From: Formosa sp. Hel1_31_208
Lineage (GTDB): Bacteria; Bacteroidota; Bacteroidia; Flavobacteriales; Flavobacteriaceae
Length of the DNA stretch: 64,000 nt
NCBI RefSeq assembly: GCF_900104785.1
Contig: NZ_LT629733.1
Span: 94,501 to 158,500 of the forward strand
Direction of reading: 5' to 3'
Shown here: piece after piece, positions 20,674 to 32,592 of the stretch
Layout of the letters: each line of letters opens with the position of its first letter
How positions within the stretch are numbered: position 1 is the stretch's first letter
Translations under genes and position numbers: made by a program
Notes under the pieces: generated by a model
Told to the model about the DNA's origin: nothing
Databases searched by the model: none
Seen by the model: only the letters and a program-made list of their open reading frames with translations

Positions 20674-21756
20674 TTAGTGGTTTATAATTTTTTCTTGATG
20701 ATTAATTGATTCTTGGTGAATCGCCTTGAACATTCGTAAGATAAATTCTTCGCTTAACCCCTTTTCATCACCTTCCAAGACCATTTTACCTAAAATCTCA
20801 TTCCAACGTTTGCTTTGTAAAACGGCTACGTTCTTTTGTTTTTTAAGCTCACCGATTCCATCAGCTACTTTCATACGCTTTCCTAACAGTTCAATAATTT
20901 GATTATCTACCACATCTATCTGAGCTCTTAAATTATTAAGCTCAGTATTATAAGCGGCTTCAGGGTCTGATTCTTTTCTAATTTTAAGATCTTCCATTAT
21001 TTGGACTAAGGTCTTTGGTGTAACTTGTTGAGCAGCATCACTCCATGCATTATCAGGATCTGTATGTGTTTCAATCATTAATCCGTCAAAATTAAGATCT
21101 AAAGCGGTTTGAGAGACATCAAAAATCATATCTCTTTTTCCTGTAATATGAGATGGGTCATTAATTAATGGTAAGTCGGGAAACTTCGTTTGCAGTTCAA
21201 TGGCTATTTGCCATTCTGGATTGTTACGGTATTTGGATTTTTCATAAGTTGAAAACCCTCTATGAATCACACCAAGATTTTTGATATTTGAAGATGCTAA
21301 ACGCTCGATAGCACCTAACCACAATGGCAAATCTGGATTTACCGGATTTTTAACCAAAACAATTTTATCTGTGCCCTTCAGAGCATCTGCAATTTCTTGA
21401 ACTATAAAAGGGCTTACTGTTGAACGTGCGCCAATCCATAATAAATCGATATCGTGTTCTAAGGCCAATTCAACATGATTTCTATTAGCCACTTCTGTGG
21501 CCGTTTTCAAACCAGTTTCTGATTTTACTTTTTGCAACCATTTTAAACCTAATGCACCTACACCTTCAAAATTCCCTGGACGTGTTCGTGGTTTCCATAT
21601 GCCAGCTCTATAATAATTGACATCGGTATCTTTAAGCTCATGCGCTATTTTTAATACTTGATCTTCAGTTTCTGCGCTGCATGGTCCTGCAATTACTAAT
21701 GGATGATTTAATCCTAAATCATCTAACCATGTTCTCATTTCTCTCTTATTCTCCAT
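20674..21756 (-). CDS. bifunctional DAHP synthase / chorismate mutase
   Basis: The 360-residue protein fuses a type I-beta (KDO8P synthase-like) 3-deoxy-7-phosphoheptulonate synthase (about 1-265: VIAGPCSAET, GIWKPRTRPGNFEG, LINDPSHITGKRDMI) to an AroQ-type chorismate mutase (about 270-355: LNNLRAQIDVVDNQIIELLGKRM). It catalyses the first step of the shikimate pathway and the branch to prephenate. In related fusions the mutase domain also serves as a feedback sensor for prephenate or aromatic amino acids. It is the last gene of the pheA-aminotransferase-tyrA operon, 9 bp after tyrA. Confidence 0.93.
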   Translation of the reverse strand: MENKREMRTWLDDLGLNHPLVIAGPCSAETEDQVLKIAHELKDTDVNYYRAGIWKPRTRPGNFEGVGALGLKWLQKVKSETGLKTATEVANRNHVELALEHDIDLLWIGARSTVSPFIVQEIADALKGTDKIVLVKNPVNPDLPLWLGAIERLASSNIKNLGVIHRGFSTYEKSKYRNNPEWQIAIELQTKFPDLPLINDPSHITGKRDMIFDVSQTALDLNFDGLMIETHTDPDNAWSDAAQQVTPKTLVQIMEDLKIRKESDPEAAYNTELNNLRAQIDVVDNQIIELLGKRMKVADGIGELKKQKNVAVLQSKRWNEILGKMVLEGDEKGLSEEFILRMFKAIHQESINHQEKIINH

Positions 21757-21765
21757 AATATTCTC

Positions 21766-22617
21766 TTAAGCAATTCCTTTTAAAATATCTTTAATTCGAT
21801 TTGTGTTTTTCATTTCCTTATAGATTTCATCAAAATTATCAGATTCCATAAAGGCTTTGAATTGTTTTAAATTGTTAATATATTCGTCTAATGTTTCTAC
21901 AACATTATTGCGATTTTGTTTAAAAATAGGAGTCCACATTTCTGGAGAACTCTTTGCCAAACGCACTGTACTCTCAAAACCAGAGCCCGCCATATCAAAA
22001 ATATCACGTTCGTTTTTCTCTTTTTCGATAACCGTTTTTCCCAACATAAATGAACTGATATGTGATAAATGCGATACATAGGCAATGTGTTTATCGTGTG
22101 CTTCAGGATTCATATAGCGAATACGCATTCCTAAGTCTGAAAATAACTCTAAAGCTTTCTCCTGAAGTTTAAATGTTGTTTTTTCTACTTCGCAAATGAT
22201 ATTTGTTTTCTTCTGAAATAGTCCATGGATAGCCGCTTTCGGTCCAGAAAATTCAGTTCCAGCAATTGGGTGCATCGCCAAAAAATTACGTCGTCGTTCA
22301 TGATTTACAACTGCATTACAAATCGGTAATTTAGTCGAACCTGCATCAATCACCAAGGTCGAATCTGAAATAGCATCCAACACTTTTGGTAATTCTATTA
22401 CAGCTTTATCTACAGGAATAGAAAGCACAACCAAATCGGCATCTTTTAAATCCTCATAAGTCGCTTTCTTATCAATAATATGAAGTTCTAAGGCTTCATC
22501 TAGATGATGTTCTTTGGTATCTATTCCAAAAATCTGAGCTTCTTTATTAGTTGCCTTGATATCTAATGCTAGACTTCCGCCAATTAATCCAACACCTATA
22601 ACATATATCTTGTTCAT
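21766..22617 (-). CDS. tyrA: prephenate dehydrogenase
   Basis: TyrA oxidatively decarboxylates prephenate to 4-hydroxyphenylpyruvate. The 283-residue protein starts MNKIYVIGVGLIGGSLALDIK, an NAD(P)-binding Rossmann loop (GxGxxG). It has MHPIAGTEFSGPKAAIHGLF and SHLSHISSFMLG, both typical of prephenate dehydrogenases. It contains no ACT domain, so feedback regulation must come from elsewhere. It lies 6 bp after the aminotransferase gene and 9 bp before the DAHP synthase gene. Confidence 0.93.
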   Translation of the reverse strand: MNKIYVIGVGLIGGSLALDIKATNKEAQIFGIDTKEHHLDEALELHIIDKKATYEDLKDADLVVLSIPVDKAVIELPKVLDAISDSTLVIDAGSTKLPICNAVVNHERRRNFLAMHPIAGTEFSGPKAAIHGLFQKKTNIICEVEKTTFKLQEKALELFSDLGMRIRYMNPEAHDKHIAYVSHLSHISSFMLGKTVIEKEKNERDIFDMAGSGFESTVRLAKSSPEMWTPIFKQNRNNVVETLDEYINNLKQFKAFMESDNFDEIYKEMKNTNRIKDILKGIA

Positions 22618-22623
22618 ATTATT

Positions 22624-23769
22624 CTATCTCAATCGTTCTAATGCTTCCTCTAGTTCTTCTTGTGGCGCGCAAAGTGATATGCGAATATATCTATCTCCAT
22701 TACTTCCAAAAATTGTTCCTGGCGCGATAAAAACTGACTTTTCTTTCAGTATCAGATCGACGTATTCTTCGGCATCAATGTAGTCGGGTAGTTTTGCCCA
22801 AACAAACAAACCTGTCGCACCTTTATCATACGTGCAATTCAAGGCTTCTGCAATTTGCCATACAATTTTTCGACGTTGTTCGTACACGCTATTTAAACTT
22901 AAGTACCACATTTCCGAACAGTTTAAGGCCTCAATAGCACCTTTCTGAATCCCTAAAAACATTCCAGAATCCATATTACTTTTAACGCGTAATACCGCTT
23001 TCACATACTCTGTTTTACCTAAGAGCATGCCAACACGCCAACCCGCCATGTTAAACGTTTTACTCAAGGAATTCAACTCTAAACATACCTCTTTCGCATC
23101 TTTATATTTTAGAATACTTCGCGGATAACGATTTAATATAAAACTGTAAGGATTGTCATTTACAATCAAAATATCGTTGCGTTTTGCAAAGGTGATTAAA
23201 TCTTCAAACAACTTATTTGAAGCCTGTGCACCAGTAGGCATATGCGGATAACTGACCCACATTAATTTAACCTTTTCTAAACCTCTTTTTTCTAAGGCCA
23301 CCAAATCTGGAAACCAATTGTTTTCTTCTGTCAAATCATAAGCAACAGGCACAGCGCCAACTAAATTAGTCACTGAATTATAGGTGGGATATCCAGGATT
23401 CGGGATTAACACCTCATCACCTTCATTTAAAAATGCTAAAGAAATATGCAATATCCCTTCTTTGCTTCCCATGAGCGGAAGGACTTCTGTTAACGGACTT
23501 AAAGGAACACCAAATTGTCTTTTGTAAAAGTTAGCAATAGCTTCACGTAATTCGGGAGTGCCTTGATAGCTCTGATACTTGTGCGCACCAGTTTCATTAA
23601 AGGTTTCCACAAGAGCATTGAGTACGCGTTCTGGTGGATTTAAATCTGGGCTACCAATTCCTAGATTAATAATAGGTTTTCCTTGTGACTGAAGCAATCT
23701 TACTTCTCGCAATTTCTTAGAGAAATAATATTCTTCTACATGTTTAAGTCGGTTCGCAATCTGTATCAT
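22624..23769 (-). CDS. class I/II aminotransferase (aromatic pathway)
   Basis: This 381-residue pyridoxal-phosphate enzyme shows the fold-type I pattern: INLGIGSPDLNPPERV near the start, NDNPYSFI and the PLP-lysine region LNSLSKTFNMAGWRVGM at about residues 230-247. Its place between pheA (4-bp overlap) and tyrA (6-bp gap) suggests it transaminates phenylpyruvate and 4-hydroxyphenylpyruvate to Phe and Tyr, or prephenate to arogenate. Which of these it prefers cannot be read from sequence. Confidence 0.88.
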   Translation of the reverse strand: MIQIANRLKHVEEYYFSKKLREVRLLQSQGKPIINLGIGSPDLNPPERVLNALVETFNETGAHKYQSYQGTPELREAIANFYKRQFGVPLSPLTEVLPLMGSKEGILHISLAFLNEGDEVLIPNPGYPTYNSVTNLVGAVPVAYDLTEENNWFPDLVALEKRGLEKVKLMWVSYPHMPTGAQASNKLFEDLITFAKRNDILIVNDNPYSFILNRYPRSILKYKDAKEVCLELNSLSKTFNMAGWRVGMLLGKTEYVKAVLRVKSNMDSGMFLGIQKGAIEALNCSEMWYLSLNSVYEQRRKIVWQIAEALNCTYDKGATGLFVWAKLPDYIDAEEYVDLILKEKSVFIAPGTIFGSNGDRYIRISLCAPQEELEEALERLR

Positions 23770-24593
23770 AGTCTTGCATTTTTATATTCTCCCAATACTT
23801 TAAAATCTTGTGCCATAATTTCCATTATGGATTTTGCTTTATGATAATCACTATACATTTCGAATGTAACATCAACAAAAAAAGCATATTTCCAAGGTGT
23901 ATCTATCTTCGGAAGTGATTGTATTTTAGTTAAATTTAACTTACAATCGCTTAATACGTTCAATATCGTCGCCAAACTTCCTCTTTTATGGTCTAGTTCA
24001 AATTTAACAGAGGCTTTATTAATCTCATCTTCTGAAATTTCAGAGTTTTGAGTTTTTACAATGAAAAAACGCGTTTCGTTATGTGTAATCGTTTGAATAC
24101 TTCTCGCCACAATCTCTAAATTAAATAATTGAGCTGCCAATTCTGAGGCTATCGCTGCCACGTGTTTTGTTTGCGACTTTTGAATACGTTGTGCGACTTC
24201 AGCCGTGTCTTTATCTTCTATAAGCTTGATGTGTGGATATTGCTTAAAAAACGTCTTACATTGCAACAGTGCCATAGGATGTGAATATACTTCCTTAATA
24301 TCATTTATCGACTGATCTGGCAAGGCCATCAAATGATGCTGAATATCTAAATAATGCTCCCCTACAATACGTAAATCATGTTGGTCAATTAATGCATAAT
24401 TAGGGATGATAGATCCCGCAATTGAGTTCTCAATAGCCATAATCGCGGCACCATCTTTTTGATTTAAAATACTATCTACGACGCTATCAAATGACAAATA
24501 TTCATTGACATTTATCGACTCATCAAAAAATTGCTGTGATACAATGTGATGAAAAGATCCTCTAATTCCTTGTATGGCTACTGATGTTATCAT
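23766..24593 (-). CDS. pheA: prephenate dehydratase
   Basis: PheA converts prephenate to phenylpyruvate. From the ATG at 24593 the protein has 275 residues: a catalytic domain (VAIQGIRGSFHH near the start, ENSIAGSI, the ETRFFIV motif at about 200) and a C-terminal ACT domain (KRGSLATILNVLSDCKLNLTKIQSLPK) that normally binds Phe for feedback inhibition. A longer frame starting at 24614 adds MKIETFF, but that stretch is encoded by the terminator hairpin and its T-run, so the start directly after the T-run is preferred. It is the first enzyme gene of the operon and follows the leader peptide. Confidence 0.93.
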   Translation of the reverse strand: MITSVAIQGIRGSFHHIVSQQFFDESINVNEYLSFDSVVDSILNQKDGAAIMAIENSIAGSIIPNYALIDQHDLRIVGEHYLDIQHHLMALPDQSINDIKEVYSHPMALLQCKTFFKQYPHIKLIEDKDTAEVAQRIQKSQTKHVAAIASELAAQLFNLEIVARSIQTITHNETRFFIVKTQNSEISEDEINKASVKFELDHKRGSLATILNVLSDCKLNLTKIQSLPKIDTPWKYAFFVDVTFEMYSDYHKAKSIMEIMAQDFKVLGEYKNARL

Positions 24594-24620
24594 AAAAAAA
24601 GTCTCGATTTTCATCGAGAC
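24594..24620 (-). terminator. attenuator terminator directly before pheA
   Basis: On the minus strand GTCTCGAT-GAAA-ATCGAGAC forms a perfect 8-bp stem with a GAAA tetraloop, followed by seven T residues and at once by the pheA ATG. Together with the aromatic leader peptide 26 bp upstream it forms a complete attenuation signal for the Phe/Tyr operon. Confidence 0.82.
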
Positions 24621-24645
24621 TCATATTATATTTATTGTTCATAAA

Positions 24646-24723
24646 TTATACATATATCGCCTCTCTCTTTTCGTTAAAAAAGAAATAAAACCAGCTGTAA
24701 TATGTATGATTTATTGAATTCAT
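24646..24723 (-). CDS. aromatic leader peptide of the pheA operon (attenuator)
   Basis: This short frame encodes a 25-residue peptide starting MNSINHT and then YYSWFYFFF, ending EAIYV and TAA. Nine consecutive positions hold three Tyr, one Trp, four Phe and one Ser. It ends 25 bp before a terminator hairpin that touches pheA. This is the design of a transcription attenuator: ribosome stalling at Phe/Tyr/Trp codons would favour read-through, smooth translation would favour termination. A TACATTAG element (complement 24739-24746) is a weak -7 candidate placing the message start about 10 nt before the ATG. The alternative antiterminator fold was not resolved; a GA-rich segment (ctctctctt on the plus strand, 24661-24669) could pair weakly with TCTC of the terminator. 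Confidence 0.8.
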   Translation of the reverse strand: MNSINHTYYSWFYFFFNEKREAIYV

Positions 24724-24849
24724 ATCGTTATTAAAGTGCTAATGTACTTATTATTTTAAGAAATTAAAATTGTTATAACATAATTTTTAGGGTTGAAGAA
24801 TGAGTTTTAAAGATTTAGCAATTTAAAGCATCTCCTGAGTAATAATTAT

Positions 24850-24874: not shown

Positions 24875-25771
24875 ATGTCAATTGAAGTAGCAAATATTTC
24901 TAAACTATATGGCGAGCAAAAAGCGCTAAACAATATTTCATTTTCTATAAACAAAGGTGAAATCGTAGGTTTTTTAGGACCGAATGGCGCAGGCAAATCA
25001 ACATTGATGAAGATTTTAACCACTTATATCAATGCCTCCGAAGGTGTTGCTAAAGTGAGCGGTTTTCATGTGGAAACACAAAAACAAGATGTGCAACATA
25101 ATGTTGGGTATTTACCCGAACACAACCCGTTGTATTTAGATATGTATGTAAAAGAATATCTAACATTTAATGCTGGCATCTACAAGGTTTCTAAATCTCG
25201 AATTCAAGAGGTCATTGAACTTACTGGTTTGACGCCAGAAACACATAAAAAAATTGGTCAATTATCTAAAGGTTATCGTCAGCGAGTTGGTATAGCGACT
25301 GCTTTGCTACATGATCCTTCAGTTTTAATTTTAGACGAACCAACTACGGGTCTTGACCCTAATCAACTGGTAGATATAAGACATCTAATTACCACTATAG
25401 GAAAAGATAAAACTGTATTTCTTTCGACTCATATCATGCAGGAAGTTGAAGCCATTTGTGATCGTGTCATTATTATTGATAAAGGAGTCATTGTTGCCGA
25501 CAAAAAATTAGAGGCATTAAGAGATGATAAAGAGCAAACCGTTATTGTAGAATTTGACTATCGTGTGGAAGACACCTTTCTTCTAAAGCTCCCTAATGCC
25601 AAATTGGTTAAAAACACACATGGTTTTATTTATGAAATTACATTTGCCACAACCCAAGATATGAGATCTCATGTATTCGATTTTGCACATGACAATGATC
25701 TAAAAATTCTTCAGTTGAACCAAAAAAATGCGAGTTTGGAAAGTTTGTTTAGAGAATTAACTTCAAAATAA
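24875..25771 (+). CDS. gldA: gliding motility ABC transporter ATP-binding protein GldA
   Basis: This 298-residue ATPase subunit shows Walker A GPNGAGKST (about 35-43), signature LSKGYRQRVGIATAL, Walker B VLILDEPTTGLDP and the H-loop STHIMQEVE. The overall sequence (YGEQKALNNISFSINKGE, HNVGYLPEHNPLYLDMYVKEYL) matches GldA, which works with the membrane proteins GldF and GldG. Those partners are not in this window. It is divergent from the aromatic operon and converges, with a 3-bp gap, on the DUF2807 gene. A general ABC exporter ATPase is the alternative, but GldA fits best. Confidence 0.85.
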   Translation: MSIEVANISKLYGEQKALNNISFSINKGEIVGFLGPNGAGKSTLMKILTTYINASEGVAKVSGFHVETQKQDVQHNVGYLPEHNPLYLDMYVKEYLTFNAGIYKVSKSRIQEVIELTGLTPETHKKIGQLSKGYRQRVGIATALLHDPSVLILDEPTTGLDPNQLVDIRHLITTIGKDKTVFLSTHIMQEVEAICDRVIIIDKGVIVADKKLEALRDDKEQTVIVEFDYRVEDTFLLKLPNAKLVKNTHGFIYEITFATTQDMRSHVFDFAHDNDLKILQLNQKNASLESLFRELTSK

Positions 25772-27652: not shown

Positions 27653-28072
27653 TTAGATTTCCTTGTCTTCTGCTACTTTAAAGCCACTTCTTCTTACCCA
27701 AGACACATGTAAGTCTTTGTTTATTAGACTATAAGCCTCACTAGAAGCGTACGCCACAGAACAATGTTAAAAATAAAATATGCAACTATAGATGAGTAAG
27801 GACGTTTAAGTTATCTATCCAAGTCTGCAATAAATGAATCGCCTCTTTAATAGAATATAGTATTTTCTTAAATAAACTGAGGGTTGCTATGGCTTCATCG
27901 GGTCCTATCCTTCTGCCTTTCTTGATACCATTTCAATAAGTTTTTCAACTTTGTTTCCGACAGAAAATTTAATATCCAAACTTTTTGCAAAATAATTAAC
28001 TCTCGCTTTTATTTTTTTTACTTTTACGCCGTAATAATTTGGAGGAAAAATTTGTTCTGATTGCAACCTCAT
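27653..28072 (-). pseudogene. decayed reading frame, product not recognised
   Basis: On the minus strand, three coding-like pieces follow one another. Piece 1 (27905-28072, 55 codons) starts MRLQSEQIFPPNYYG and ends at a TAG. Piece 2 (27786-27911) continues in the next frame with GPDEAIATLSLFKKILYSIK and ends NVLTHL; one base inserted near 27908 would join the two into a protein of about 95 residues. Piece 3 (27653-27766, no start) reads AYASSEAYSLINKDLHVSWV and ends at a TAA. The amphipathic, Lys-rich text looks like real protein, but I cannot name a family. The first codons lie antisense to the SAM-II riboswitch of metK. This interval makes up most of the 546-bp gap before metK. Confidence 0.5.
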
Positions 28073-28091
28073 AAAAAAAATGCTAAAGCAG
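28041..28091 (+). ncRNA. SAM-II-type riboswitch upstream of metK
   Basis: The sequence has the SAM-II layout. P1 is GAGG (28042-28045) with CCTC (28067-28070). The loop contains ATTTG and ends ATTGCAA. A 3' tail has a 17-nt stretch ending GCTAAA (28082-28087), with CAG that can pair with the CTG of loop 1 to close the pseudoknot. Spacings from ATTT to GCA (16 nt) and from P1 to the end of GCTAAA (17 nt) equal those of the structurally solved SAM-II RNA as I recall it. Downstream, CTTTAGC (28106-28112) can pair with GCTAAAG of the aptamer, a possible switch hairpin. The metK gene 73 bp downstream fits control by SAM. Rfam RF00521 would settle it. Confidence 0.72.
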
Positions 28092-28164
28092 TTAGTTTAA
28101 GACTTCTTTAGCGACCAAGCAATCTCTACTAGTTTTTCAAAAACACACAAAACAAAAGGTTTAT

Positions 28165-29418
28165 ATGGCATATTTATTTACTTCGGAAAGTGTCTCTGAA
28201 GGACATCCAGATAAAGTCGCAGATCAAATTAGTGATGCGTTAATTGACAATTTTTTAGCTTTTGATCCAGAATCAAAAGTAGCATGTGAAACTCTTGTGA
28301 CTACTGGACAAGTTGTACTTGCTGGTGAAGTGAAATCAAATACGTATCTCGATGTGCAAAAAATTGCGCGTGATACTATTAATAAAATTGGATACACTAA
28401 AAGCGAATATATGTTTGATGGCAATTCTTGTGGTGTCTTCTCTGCTATTCACGAACAATCTGAAGATATTAATCGTGGAGTAGATAGAGCAAATAAAGAC
28501 GAACAAGGAGCTGGTGACCAAGGTATGATGTTTGGTTATGCAACTCGTGAAACAGAAAACTATATGCCTTTGGCTTTAGATCTTTCGCATCGCATATTAA
28601 AAGAGCTCGCCGATTTAAGACGTGAACATGAAGACATCACCTATTTACGTCCAGACTCTAAAAGTCAGGTAACTATTGAGTACAGTGATGATAATATTCC
28701 ACAGCGTATTGATGCAATAGTGGTTTCAACACAACATGATGATTTTGGAGCTGATGAAGATATGCTTACCAAGATTAGAAAAGATATTGTCGACATTTTG
28801 ATTCCAAGAGTGATCGCTAAATTACCCGAACATATTCAAGTATTATTCAATGACAACATTACCTACCACATTAATCCAACAGGGAAATTTGTGATTGGTG
28901 GACCTCATGGAGATACTGGATTGACTGGACGAAAAATCATTGTAGACACTTACGGTGGAAAAGGTGCTCATGGTGGTGGTGCTTTTTCAGGTAAAGACCC
29001 AAGTAAAGTAGATCGAAGTGCAGCTTATGCCACACGACATATTGCTAAAAATATGGTCGCAGCGGGTATTTGTGACGAAGTATTAGTGCAGGTGAGTTAT
29101 GCTATTGGTGTGGTAGAACCTACTTCTATTTATGTTGACACCTATGGTACCTGTCCGTTTAATCTAACCGATGGAGAGATTGCCTCAAGAATTAAAAACA
29201 TTTTCGATATGCGCCCTGCTGCTATCGAAAAGCGCTTAAAACTGCGCCAACCGATGTATAGTGAAACAGCAGCTTATGGTCATATGGGTCGCAAGTCTGA
29301 AACAGTAAGTAAAACATTTGAACAGCCAAACGGAGAACCAATAAGCCTGGAGGTTGAATTGTTTACGTGGGAAAAACTAGATTACGTAGATAAAATAAAA
29401 GCAGCGTTTGAATTATAA
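28165..29418 (+). CDS. metK: S-adenosylmethionine synthetase
   Basis: MetK makes SAM from methionine and ATP. The 417-residue protein begins [23 protein letters not shown] and carries [12 protein letters not shown] and [19 protein letters not shown], the ATP- and metal-binding signatures. It is somewhat longer than E. coli MetK (384), as is usual in Bacteroidota. It is a single gene closed by a strong terminator and preceded by a SAM-II-type riboswitch, which suggests product feedback on its own synthesis. Confidence 0.96.
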
Positions 29419-32446: not shown

Positions 32447-32480
32447 AACCGAAGTCACCTCAAAAGAGGTGACTTCGGTT
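32447..32480 (-). terminator. intrinsic terminator after the TonB-receptor-like gene
   Basis: Perfect 15-bp arms (AACCGAAGTCACCTC / GAGGTGACTTCGGTT) with an AAAA loop; the minus strand continues into an AT-rich T-run. It is placed 113 bp beyond the barrel gene's stop codon. Confidence 0.8.
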
Positions 32481-32592
32481 TTGCGTTAAGGATGGAAATG
32501 GCATCCTTTTGTTTACAAAAGATATAATGGACAGCCTGACCTCAACCTTGCATAACGTTTCGTTGTGAAAATGAGGGAACGCCCAAATTACG

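Follow-up and report, generated by a model that had tools for sequence, protein, structure and literature searches.

The window, a stretch of 64,000 nucleotides from Formosa sp. Hel1_31_208, carries on its minus strand a pheA operon preceded by a short open reading frame rich in aromatic codons and by a hairpin with a T-tract. The features of the locus are given below in the direction of transcription of the operon, with positions in the window.

24875-25771, plus strand: divergent gene for an ABC transporter ATPase (PF00005), which bounds the leader, lies outside the attenuator and serves as synteny anchor
24739-24768, minus strand: promoter-like element read from the sequence, with TTTA at 24768-24765 and the -7-like box TACATTAG at 24746-24739, spaced by 18 nt
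24723-24646, minus strand: leader ORF of 25 codons plus stop, MNSINHTYYSWFYFFFNEKREAIYV* (25 aa), from the sequence and the ORF translation, present at 57/57 genus and family loci
24676-24702, minus strand: putative control codons Y-Y-S-W-F-Y-F-F-F, from the translation of the leader ORF
24700-24718, minus strand: segment 1, predicted by the minimum-free-energy fold to pair with 24638-24655 (1:2, ribosome-free state)
24641-24663, minus strand: segment 2, 5' side of the predicted antiterminator, in which GAGGC (24663-24659) pairs with GUCUC (24620-24616) in the fold lacking the terminator 3' arm
24616-24635, minus strand: segment 3, 3' side of the predicted antiterminator, shared with the terminator 5' arm, from the folds and the alignment of relatives
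24594-24622, minus strand: segment 3:4, intrinsic terminator with a perfect 8-bp core, GTCTCGAT-GAAA-ATCGAGAC, followed by T7, from sequence and pairing
23766-24593, minus strand: pheA, prephenate dehydratase (PF00800, E 2.8e-54)
22624-23769, minus strand: aminotransferase class I/II (PF00155)
21766-22617, minus strand: tyrA, prephenate dehydrogenase (PF02153 and PF20463)
20674-21756, minus strand: DAHP synthase-chorismate mutase fusion (PF00793 and PF01817)

The initial annotation had described the leader ORF, the YYSWFYFFF run, a 25-nt gap, a perfect hairpin, T7 and an abutting pheA ATG, and all of these are present where it placed them. The leader stop codon is separated by 25 nt from the hairpin GTCTCGAT-GAAA-ATCGAGAC (24620-24601), T7 occupies 24600-24594, and the pheA ATG (24593-24591) follows directly. 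We took 24593 as the start of pheA, while the mechanical ORF caller picks an in-frame ATG at 24614, inside the hairpin. The Pfam matches of pheA, the aminotransferase, tyrA and DAHP synthase also bear out that the downstream genes make Phe and Tyr. Phe and Tyr are direct products of the operon, which also provides the Trp precursor.

Since the upstream gene is divergent, the terminator on the minus strand could act only on a transcript begun in the leader gap. Promoters of Bacteroidetes have a -33/-7 consensus. The box TA..TT[TA]G is found at 54 of the 57 genus and family loci, and TTTG stands exactly 18 nt 5' of the box at 42 of them; the window has TTTA at this position. A -7 promoter element is given for F. 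johnsoniae in a passage of PMC6847099. Judging from the promoter-like boxes, transcription probably starts just 5' of the leader ORF.

Conservation of the leader and terminator

The detector used for relatives requires an ORF of 8-45 aa that begins with ATG and has five or more F, W or Y in 12 residues, followed by a stem and a T-tract. The first 57 pheA loci comprise that of the window, 22 from the same genus and 34 from other genera of the family. An aromatic leader with a terminator is found at 57/57 of these first-fetched loci, 55 by the detector and two by eye. In L035 the leader lies farther 5', behind inserted repeats, and in L038 the start codon is lost at the contig edge with the aromatic run and terminator visible. 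Among 80 named loci, in which species are partly repeated and which overlap with the 57, the detector finds 79 and L235 is recognized by eye (80/80). A stricter stem rule gave 51/80 named loci and 18/40 loci of the phylum-wide draw described below; with just three G-C pairs in the terminators of Flavobacterium, a looser rule was adopted.

The 38 further loci consist of 28 from the family (13 missed by an RNA model and 15 among model-positive genomes) and 10 from the order outside the family. The leader is present in 33/38 (31 detected, L094 and L095 by eye), namely 26/28 in the family and 7/10 in the order. The 15 add little, as they were picked among genomes positive for the model, the covariance model R1. 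The stretches L115, L118 and L119 were cut around model matches, and a pheA start is confirmed downstream in all three. R1 has matches in 164 of 199 family genomes (E up to 0.01) and, by comparison of genome tables, in 161 of the 178 with pheA, leaving 17 without; these matches were counted without singly checking their positions and E near 0.001 can be background, so direct inspection was relied on instead. Thirteen of the 17 missed genomes were inspected (G158, G193, G211 and G227 were left out), and 11 of the 13 have the leader and terminator.

The controls should be noted. On the opposite strand the detector responds in 0/57, 1/38, 0/80 and 0/40 loci of the four sets (1/215 in total), and on shuffled sequences in 0/570, 0/380, 3/800 and 1/400. 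At other genes it finds nothing in 89 stretches or in 890 shuffled versions of them. These 89 stretches are 60 upstream of window ORFs of at least 100 aa, 21 near kdsA and eight near pabB, the placement of the latter 29 being approximate. A terminator scan alone gives eight hairpins against 6.4 expected in 12 kb, which is not significant; the significance therefore rests on the conservation. The alignment of the upstream regions of relatives proposed in the initial annotation thus comes out in its favor, the aromatic frame and the terminator being conserved across the family and beyond.

A phylum-wide draw gave 148 genomes, 128 with a pheA match, of which 40 were inspected: 16/16 of the class in other orders, 5/14 further members of the family and 19/95 that belong to the phylum only. 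The leader and terminator are present in all five family members and in 14/16 of the class, where 12 were detected and two seen by eye (in L321 the leader begins with GTG, and L322 has two leaders in tandem). The other two of the class, L307 and L308, have no leader, and their pheA directly follows a coding stretch resembling EPSP synthase (by eye). In the phylum-only genomes a leader is found in 2/19, a weak negative since 7/19 have open frames of at least 337 aa and the stretch may miss the region before the gene. Two genomes outside the class, L323 and L324, carry an aromatic leader and match the Flavobacteriaceae PheA profile at E of about 1e-86; their leader and PheA were possibly acquired through transfer.

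The initial annotation had named intact pheA operons devoid of an aromatic codon run or of a terminator as evidence against attenuation. Such exceptions occur; all of the first 57 loci keep the leader. In G080, pheA, tyrA and DAHP synthase stand together, with no leader within the 382 nt available before pheA. G068, in which the three genes are dispersed, likewise has no leader, and none is found before pheA in G044, G050 and G037. Two variations in architecture are also observed. In L096, L319 and L322, two tandem aromatic leaders precede pheA, each with its own hairpin and T-tract (L322 by eye). In L035 and in L235, the latter from an uncultured Gelidibacter, repeats with GCGGGAT hairpins are inserted between the attenuator and pheA.

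Alternative RNA structures and the proposed mechanism

When the leader is folded without the terminator 3' arm, GAGGC pairs with GUCUC and an AU-rich inner stem forms. Adding the 3' arm yields the terminator, and the sequence 5' of it then adopts the 1:2 helix, in which segment 2 is hidden. Folding in both states, which the initial annotation had suggested, thus gives a terminator and an antiterminator that are mutually exclusive. The full-length fold favors the terminator, so that antitermination would depend on kinetics.

The pairing was compared among 30 diverse relatives. In the terminator, 100% of 298 cells are paired. The outer helix of the antiterminator is paired in 88.8% of cells. For the whole antiterminator the value is 76.9% versus 75.0% in shuffles (reached by 10/500 shuffles), its covariation score is reached by 3/500 shuffles, and its two-sided changes are few (18 cells). 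The duplex between strand and arm outranks 95% or more of its 50 mononucleotide shuffles in 46/57 loci and falls short of this in 11/57. For the 1:2 helix the support is mixed and weaker than for the other two structures: it is paired in 70.1% of cells; the count of pairs with two-sided changes is reached by 281/500 shuffles, and the cells paired and the covariation by 0/500. Alignment column 142 should be noted, since it belongs to the shared strand. L027, L028 and L030 have C for U in this column, with G instead of A at the antiterminator partner; the terminator partner in the same sequences is G, a letter often seen at that place in G-U pairs. Such changes would be expected if one strand serves both hairpins, as far as three sequences can show it.

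The most telling feature is the distance between the aromatic run and the antiterminator, which is nearly constant. In 57/57 loci, 9-13 nt (11 nt in the window) lie between the last aromatic codon and the beginning of the antiterminator 5' strand, whereas the stop codon is found anywhere between 8 nt on the 5' side and 23 nt on the 3' side of that beginning. Judging from the size of the ribosome footprint, a ribosome on the stop codon would cover the antiterminator strand or its start in 57/57, and one on the run would not reach that strand. Exclusive folds combined with a fixed spacing from run to strand are, at the sequence level, the signature of classical ribosome-mediated attenuation.

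The aromatic leader before pheA is thus very probably a classical ribosome-mediated transcription attenuator that gauges the supply of charged aromatic tRNA. A ribosome slowed on the YYSWFYFFF codons would leave GAGGC free to pair with GUCUC, and with the antiterminator formed, RNA polymerase would continue into pheA, the aminotransferase gene, tyrA and the DAHP synthase gene. A ribosome reaching the stop codon would cover GAGGC, so that the GUCUCGAU/AUCGAGAC terminator forms and transcription ends before pheA. If the leader is untranslated, segment 1 would pair with segment 2, and termination would be favored again. Ribosome stalling, termination and a contribution of the Tyr and Trp codons besides Phe are what we infer from the architecture. 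The claim of the initial annotation that a peptide-leader attenuator fits the products of the operon is supported by the aromatic run, the conserved terminator and the predicted exclusive folds.

Two other roles can be considered for these elements. The T-run touches the pheA start in the window and the alternative ATG at 24614 lies within the hairpin, as would suit a hairpin that mainly blocks access of the ribosome to pheA and not RNA polymerase. Contrarily, the T-tract is conserved, a gap of 20-111 nt lies between the stem and the beginning of the pheA match in 20 of 46 parsed loci (57 given), and repeats separate the hairpin from pheA in L035 and L235. Since the stem is often distant from pheA and the T-tract is conserved, occlusion of the ribosome cannot be the general role of the hairpin, and we regard such translational attenuation as very unlikely. 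The other role is that of a small functional membrane peptide next to an unrelated terminator. The peptide is hydrophobic and partly conserved, but its aromatic run is kept while its length and stop position vary, some leaders stop right after FFFS or FFFN (L002, L004 and L011), and the codons after the run track the RNA pairing strand. A functional peptide is accordingly a most improbable explanation, and transcription attenuation remains the preferred reading of this conserved and almost certainly functional element.

Attenuation of this kind, if true, relies on a ribosome trailing RNA polymerase and so would imply functional coupling of transcription and translation in bacteria lacking Shine-Dalgarno sequences; the absence of these sequences from Bacteroidota mRNAs is stated in PMC6847099. 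The locus offers a clear, testable case of ribosome-mediated attenuation in Bacteroidota, in which one can address both the coupling and the question whether a single leader responds to all three products. The leaders also flag short genes below the length of standard gene calling.

Putative control codons and genomes lacking pheA

In all 57 leaders, the last aromatic codon is directly preceded by three further aromatic codons (171/171), with F and Y interchanging. W occupies one fixed position in 47/57 leaders and is found anywhere in the core in 49/57. The Flavobacterium leaders, as printed from the named loci, have no W. The initial annotation had proposed that the leader senses several aromatic amino acids; the support for this is indirect, namely the shared DAHP synthase in the operon, the 171 aromatic codons and the fixed W. 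A control specific for Phe, in which the Tyr and Trp codons are incidental and TTT and TAT drift into each other, would explain the interchange of F and Y in the core, the absence of W from the 12-residue core window of 8/57 leaders and the Flavobacterium leaders. However, TGG is two changes away from TTT or TAT, yet W keeps one position in 47/57; DAHP synthase serves all three amino acids; and leaders with Trp codons occur where pheA is gone and trpE is kept, as described below. Phe-specific control is thus rather unlikely, and sensing of all three amino acids is preferred.

Twenty-one family genomes have neither pheA (by protein search and PF00800) nor PF02153 above the cut-off, though a contig-end fragment in G106 still matches tyrA. 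The region upstream of DAHP synthase is readable in 14 of the 21: G160 and G106 end at contig ends, G209 has none, and G101, G123, G180 and G205 give a single KdsA-type row only and so fall outside the 14. trpE is kept in 8/14 and absent in 6/14; three of the latter six assemblies (G133, G099 and G067) are 82-88% complete, and trpE could be missing from the assembly. A Trp-codon leader with a terminator precedes DAHP synthase in 7/8 genomes with trpE and in 0/6 without it (Fisher test, p 0.005); the cases are phylogenetically non-independent, so no weight is placed on this test. The one genome that keeps trpE but has no such leader, G087, carries a second DAHP-synthase-like gene some 6.7 kb away from trpE. 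In G099 and G086, both lacking trpE, an ORF containing aromatic residues is seen with no terminator detected. Six of the seven Trp leaders have WW, and G145 has a single W (by eye), possibly a chance occurrence. Trp codons appearing in genomes that have lost the Phe/Tyr branch amount to a natural experiment on a change of attenuator specificity.

The divergent ABC ATPase flanks the leader in 6/7 Trp-leader loci, and because the same gene flanks the pheA attenuator, these six loci are orthologous to it. In a tree of the ATPase, whose bootstrap is not settled, the six genomes form one supported clade, in which G086 and G133, without leader or trpE, are nested. G078 stands elsewhere on a long branch, and its ATPase is non-syntenic. 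For these reasons the tree is not taken as proof of two switches to Trp. The switch to a Trp leader appears to have occurred at least once, and possibly twice.

Whether the Trp leaders before DAHP synthase are copies of trp-operon leaders, and not a re-specified pheA attenuator, should be considered. They share WW with the trp leaders. Their Trp codons lie 23-25 nt from the antiterminator strand in six loci and about 30 nt in L198, a spacing unlike the 9-13 nt of pheA leaders, and the pheA-leader model finds only the leader of G078 (E 2.6e-4). On the other hand, Rfam, Bacteroid-trp included, gives no match at the seven loci when E values of up to 1 are admitted, whereas the trpE leaders of 3/5 scanned Trp-leader genomes match Bacteroid-trp at the gathering score. 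The stem letters AGTCCC..GGGRCT resemble those of pheA terminators (by eye), and six loci are syntenic with the pheA attenuator. Copying is therefore unlikely, and re-specification is the preferred origin.

Taken together, these observations favor, with reasonable though not high probability, a trivalent Phe/Tyr/Trp attenuator spread across Bacteroidia whose codons evolve with the pathway. It would have become a Trp attenuator on at least one occasion, and possibly on two, once pheA, the aminotransferase gene and tyrA had been lost, and would have been erased where trpE is also gone.

Comparison with other leaders and known attenuators

Other amino acid operons in the genome of the window have similar leaders. 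hisG is preceded by MFFIQFRHHHFHSCNQAS (HHHFH leader; L132) and trpE by MNTNLNHTWWWSSRNSNVVN (WWW leader; L138), each followed by a hairpin and a T-tract (by eye). The trpE leader matches RF01692 at 63.1 bits, while Rfam gives no match for the hisG leader when E values of up to 1 are admitted. In eight chosen genomes, His leaders are found in 7/7 with hisG and Trp leaders in 8/8 with trpE; an ilvD search in the same number of genomes gave no match in that of the window. Judging from these leader sequences, attenuation looks like a general control mode for amino acid operons in the group. Two RNAs of other types also lie in the window on the plus strand: a SAM-II riboswitch at 28036-28096 (64.8 bits), ahead of an ORF at 28165 for a putative S-adenosylmethionine synthetase, and a Flavo-1 RNA (Rfam RF01705) at 32478-32545 (49.5 bits).

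The initial annotation had regarded the leader as not described in this group. This is not supported, as PMC9723704 names a pheA 5' element and Rfam has a Bacteroidete Trp peptide leader. For Flavobacterium psychrophilum, PMC9723704 (2021) reports strong clues that leader peptides attenuate amino acid operons. It also names a structured 5' element before pheA whose conservation extends to other genera of the Flavobacteriaceae and which has no Rfam hit. That element stands before the same gene in the same family as the present leader; that passage describes neither a peptide nor codons nor an antiterminator for it. The two are presumably the same element, F. psychrophilum being a species outside the named loci. 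In Bacteroides thetaiotaomicron, long 5' UTRs with short ORFs reminiscent of attenuation leader peptides are mentioned in PMC7366714. For the mixed aromatic codons, the class-wide spread and the switch to Trp, we found no published description in a search lying mostly outside subscription journals and supplements, where earlier comparative work may hold them.

Bacteroid-trp (RF01692), the Bacteroidete tryptophan peptide leader RNA (listed in a table of PMC2864571), is a peptide leader from the same phylum, which stands before trpE with WWW in the genome of the window. Neither Bacteroid-trp nor a T-box or other Rfam cis-regulator matches at the pheA leader, whether the window is scanned at the gathering score or the stretch L001, in which the leader is contained, with E values of up to 1 admitted.

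In E. coli and Salmonella, pheA is controlled by attenuation according to PMC1183508, which also lists ilvGMEDA. The present locus shares with the pheL/pheA attenuator an aromatic leader peptide, alternative hairpins and an intrinsic terminator before pheA. However, the pheL peptide of enterobacteria is Phe-only, in contrast to the mixed Tyr, Trp and Phe codons found here, and the present operon adds tyrA and DAHP synthase. The ilvGMEDA leader of E. coli is multivalent. Like the attenuator proposed here, it places one leader in charge of several end products of a branched pathway, which are branched-chain amino acids in E. coli and would be aromatic ones in the present operon.
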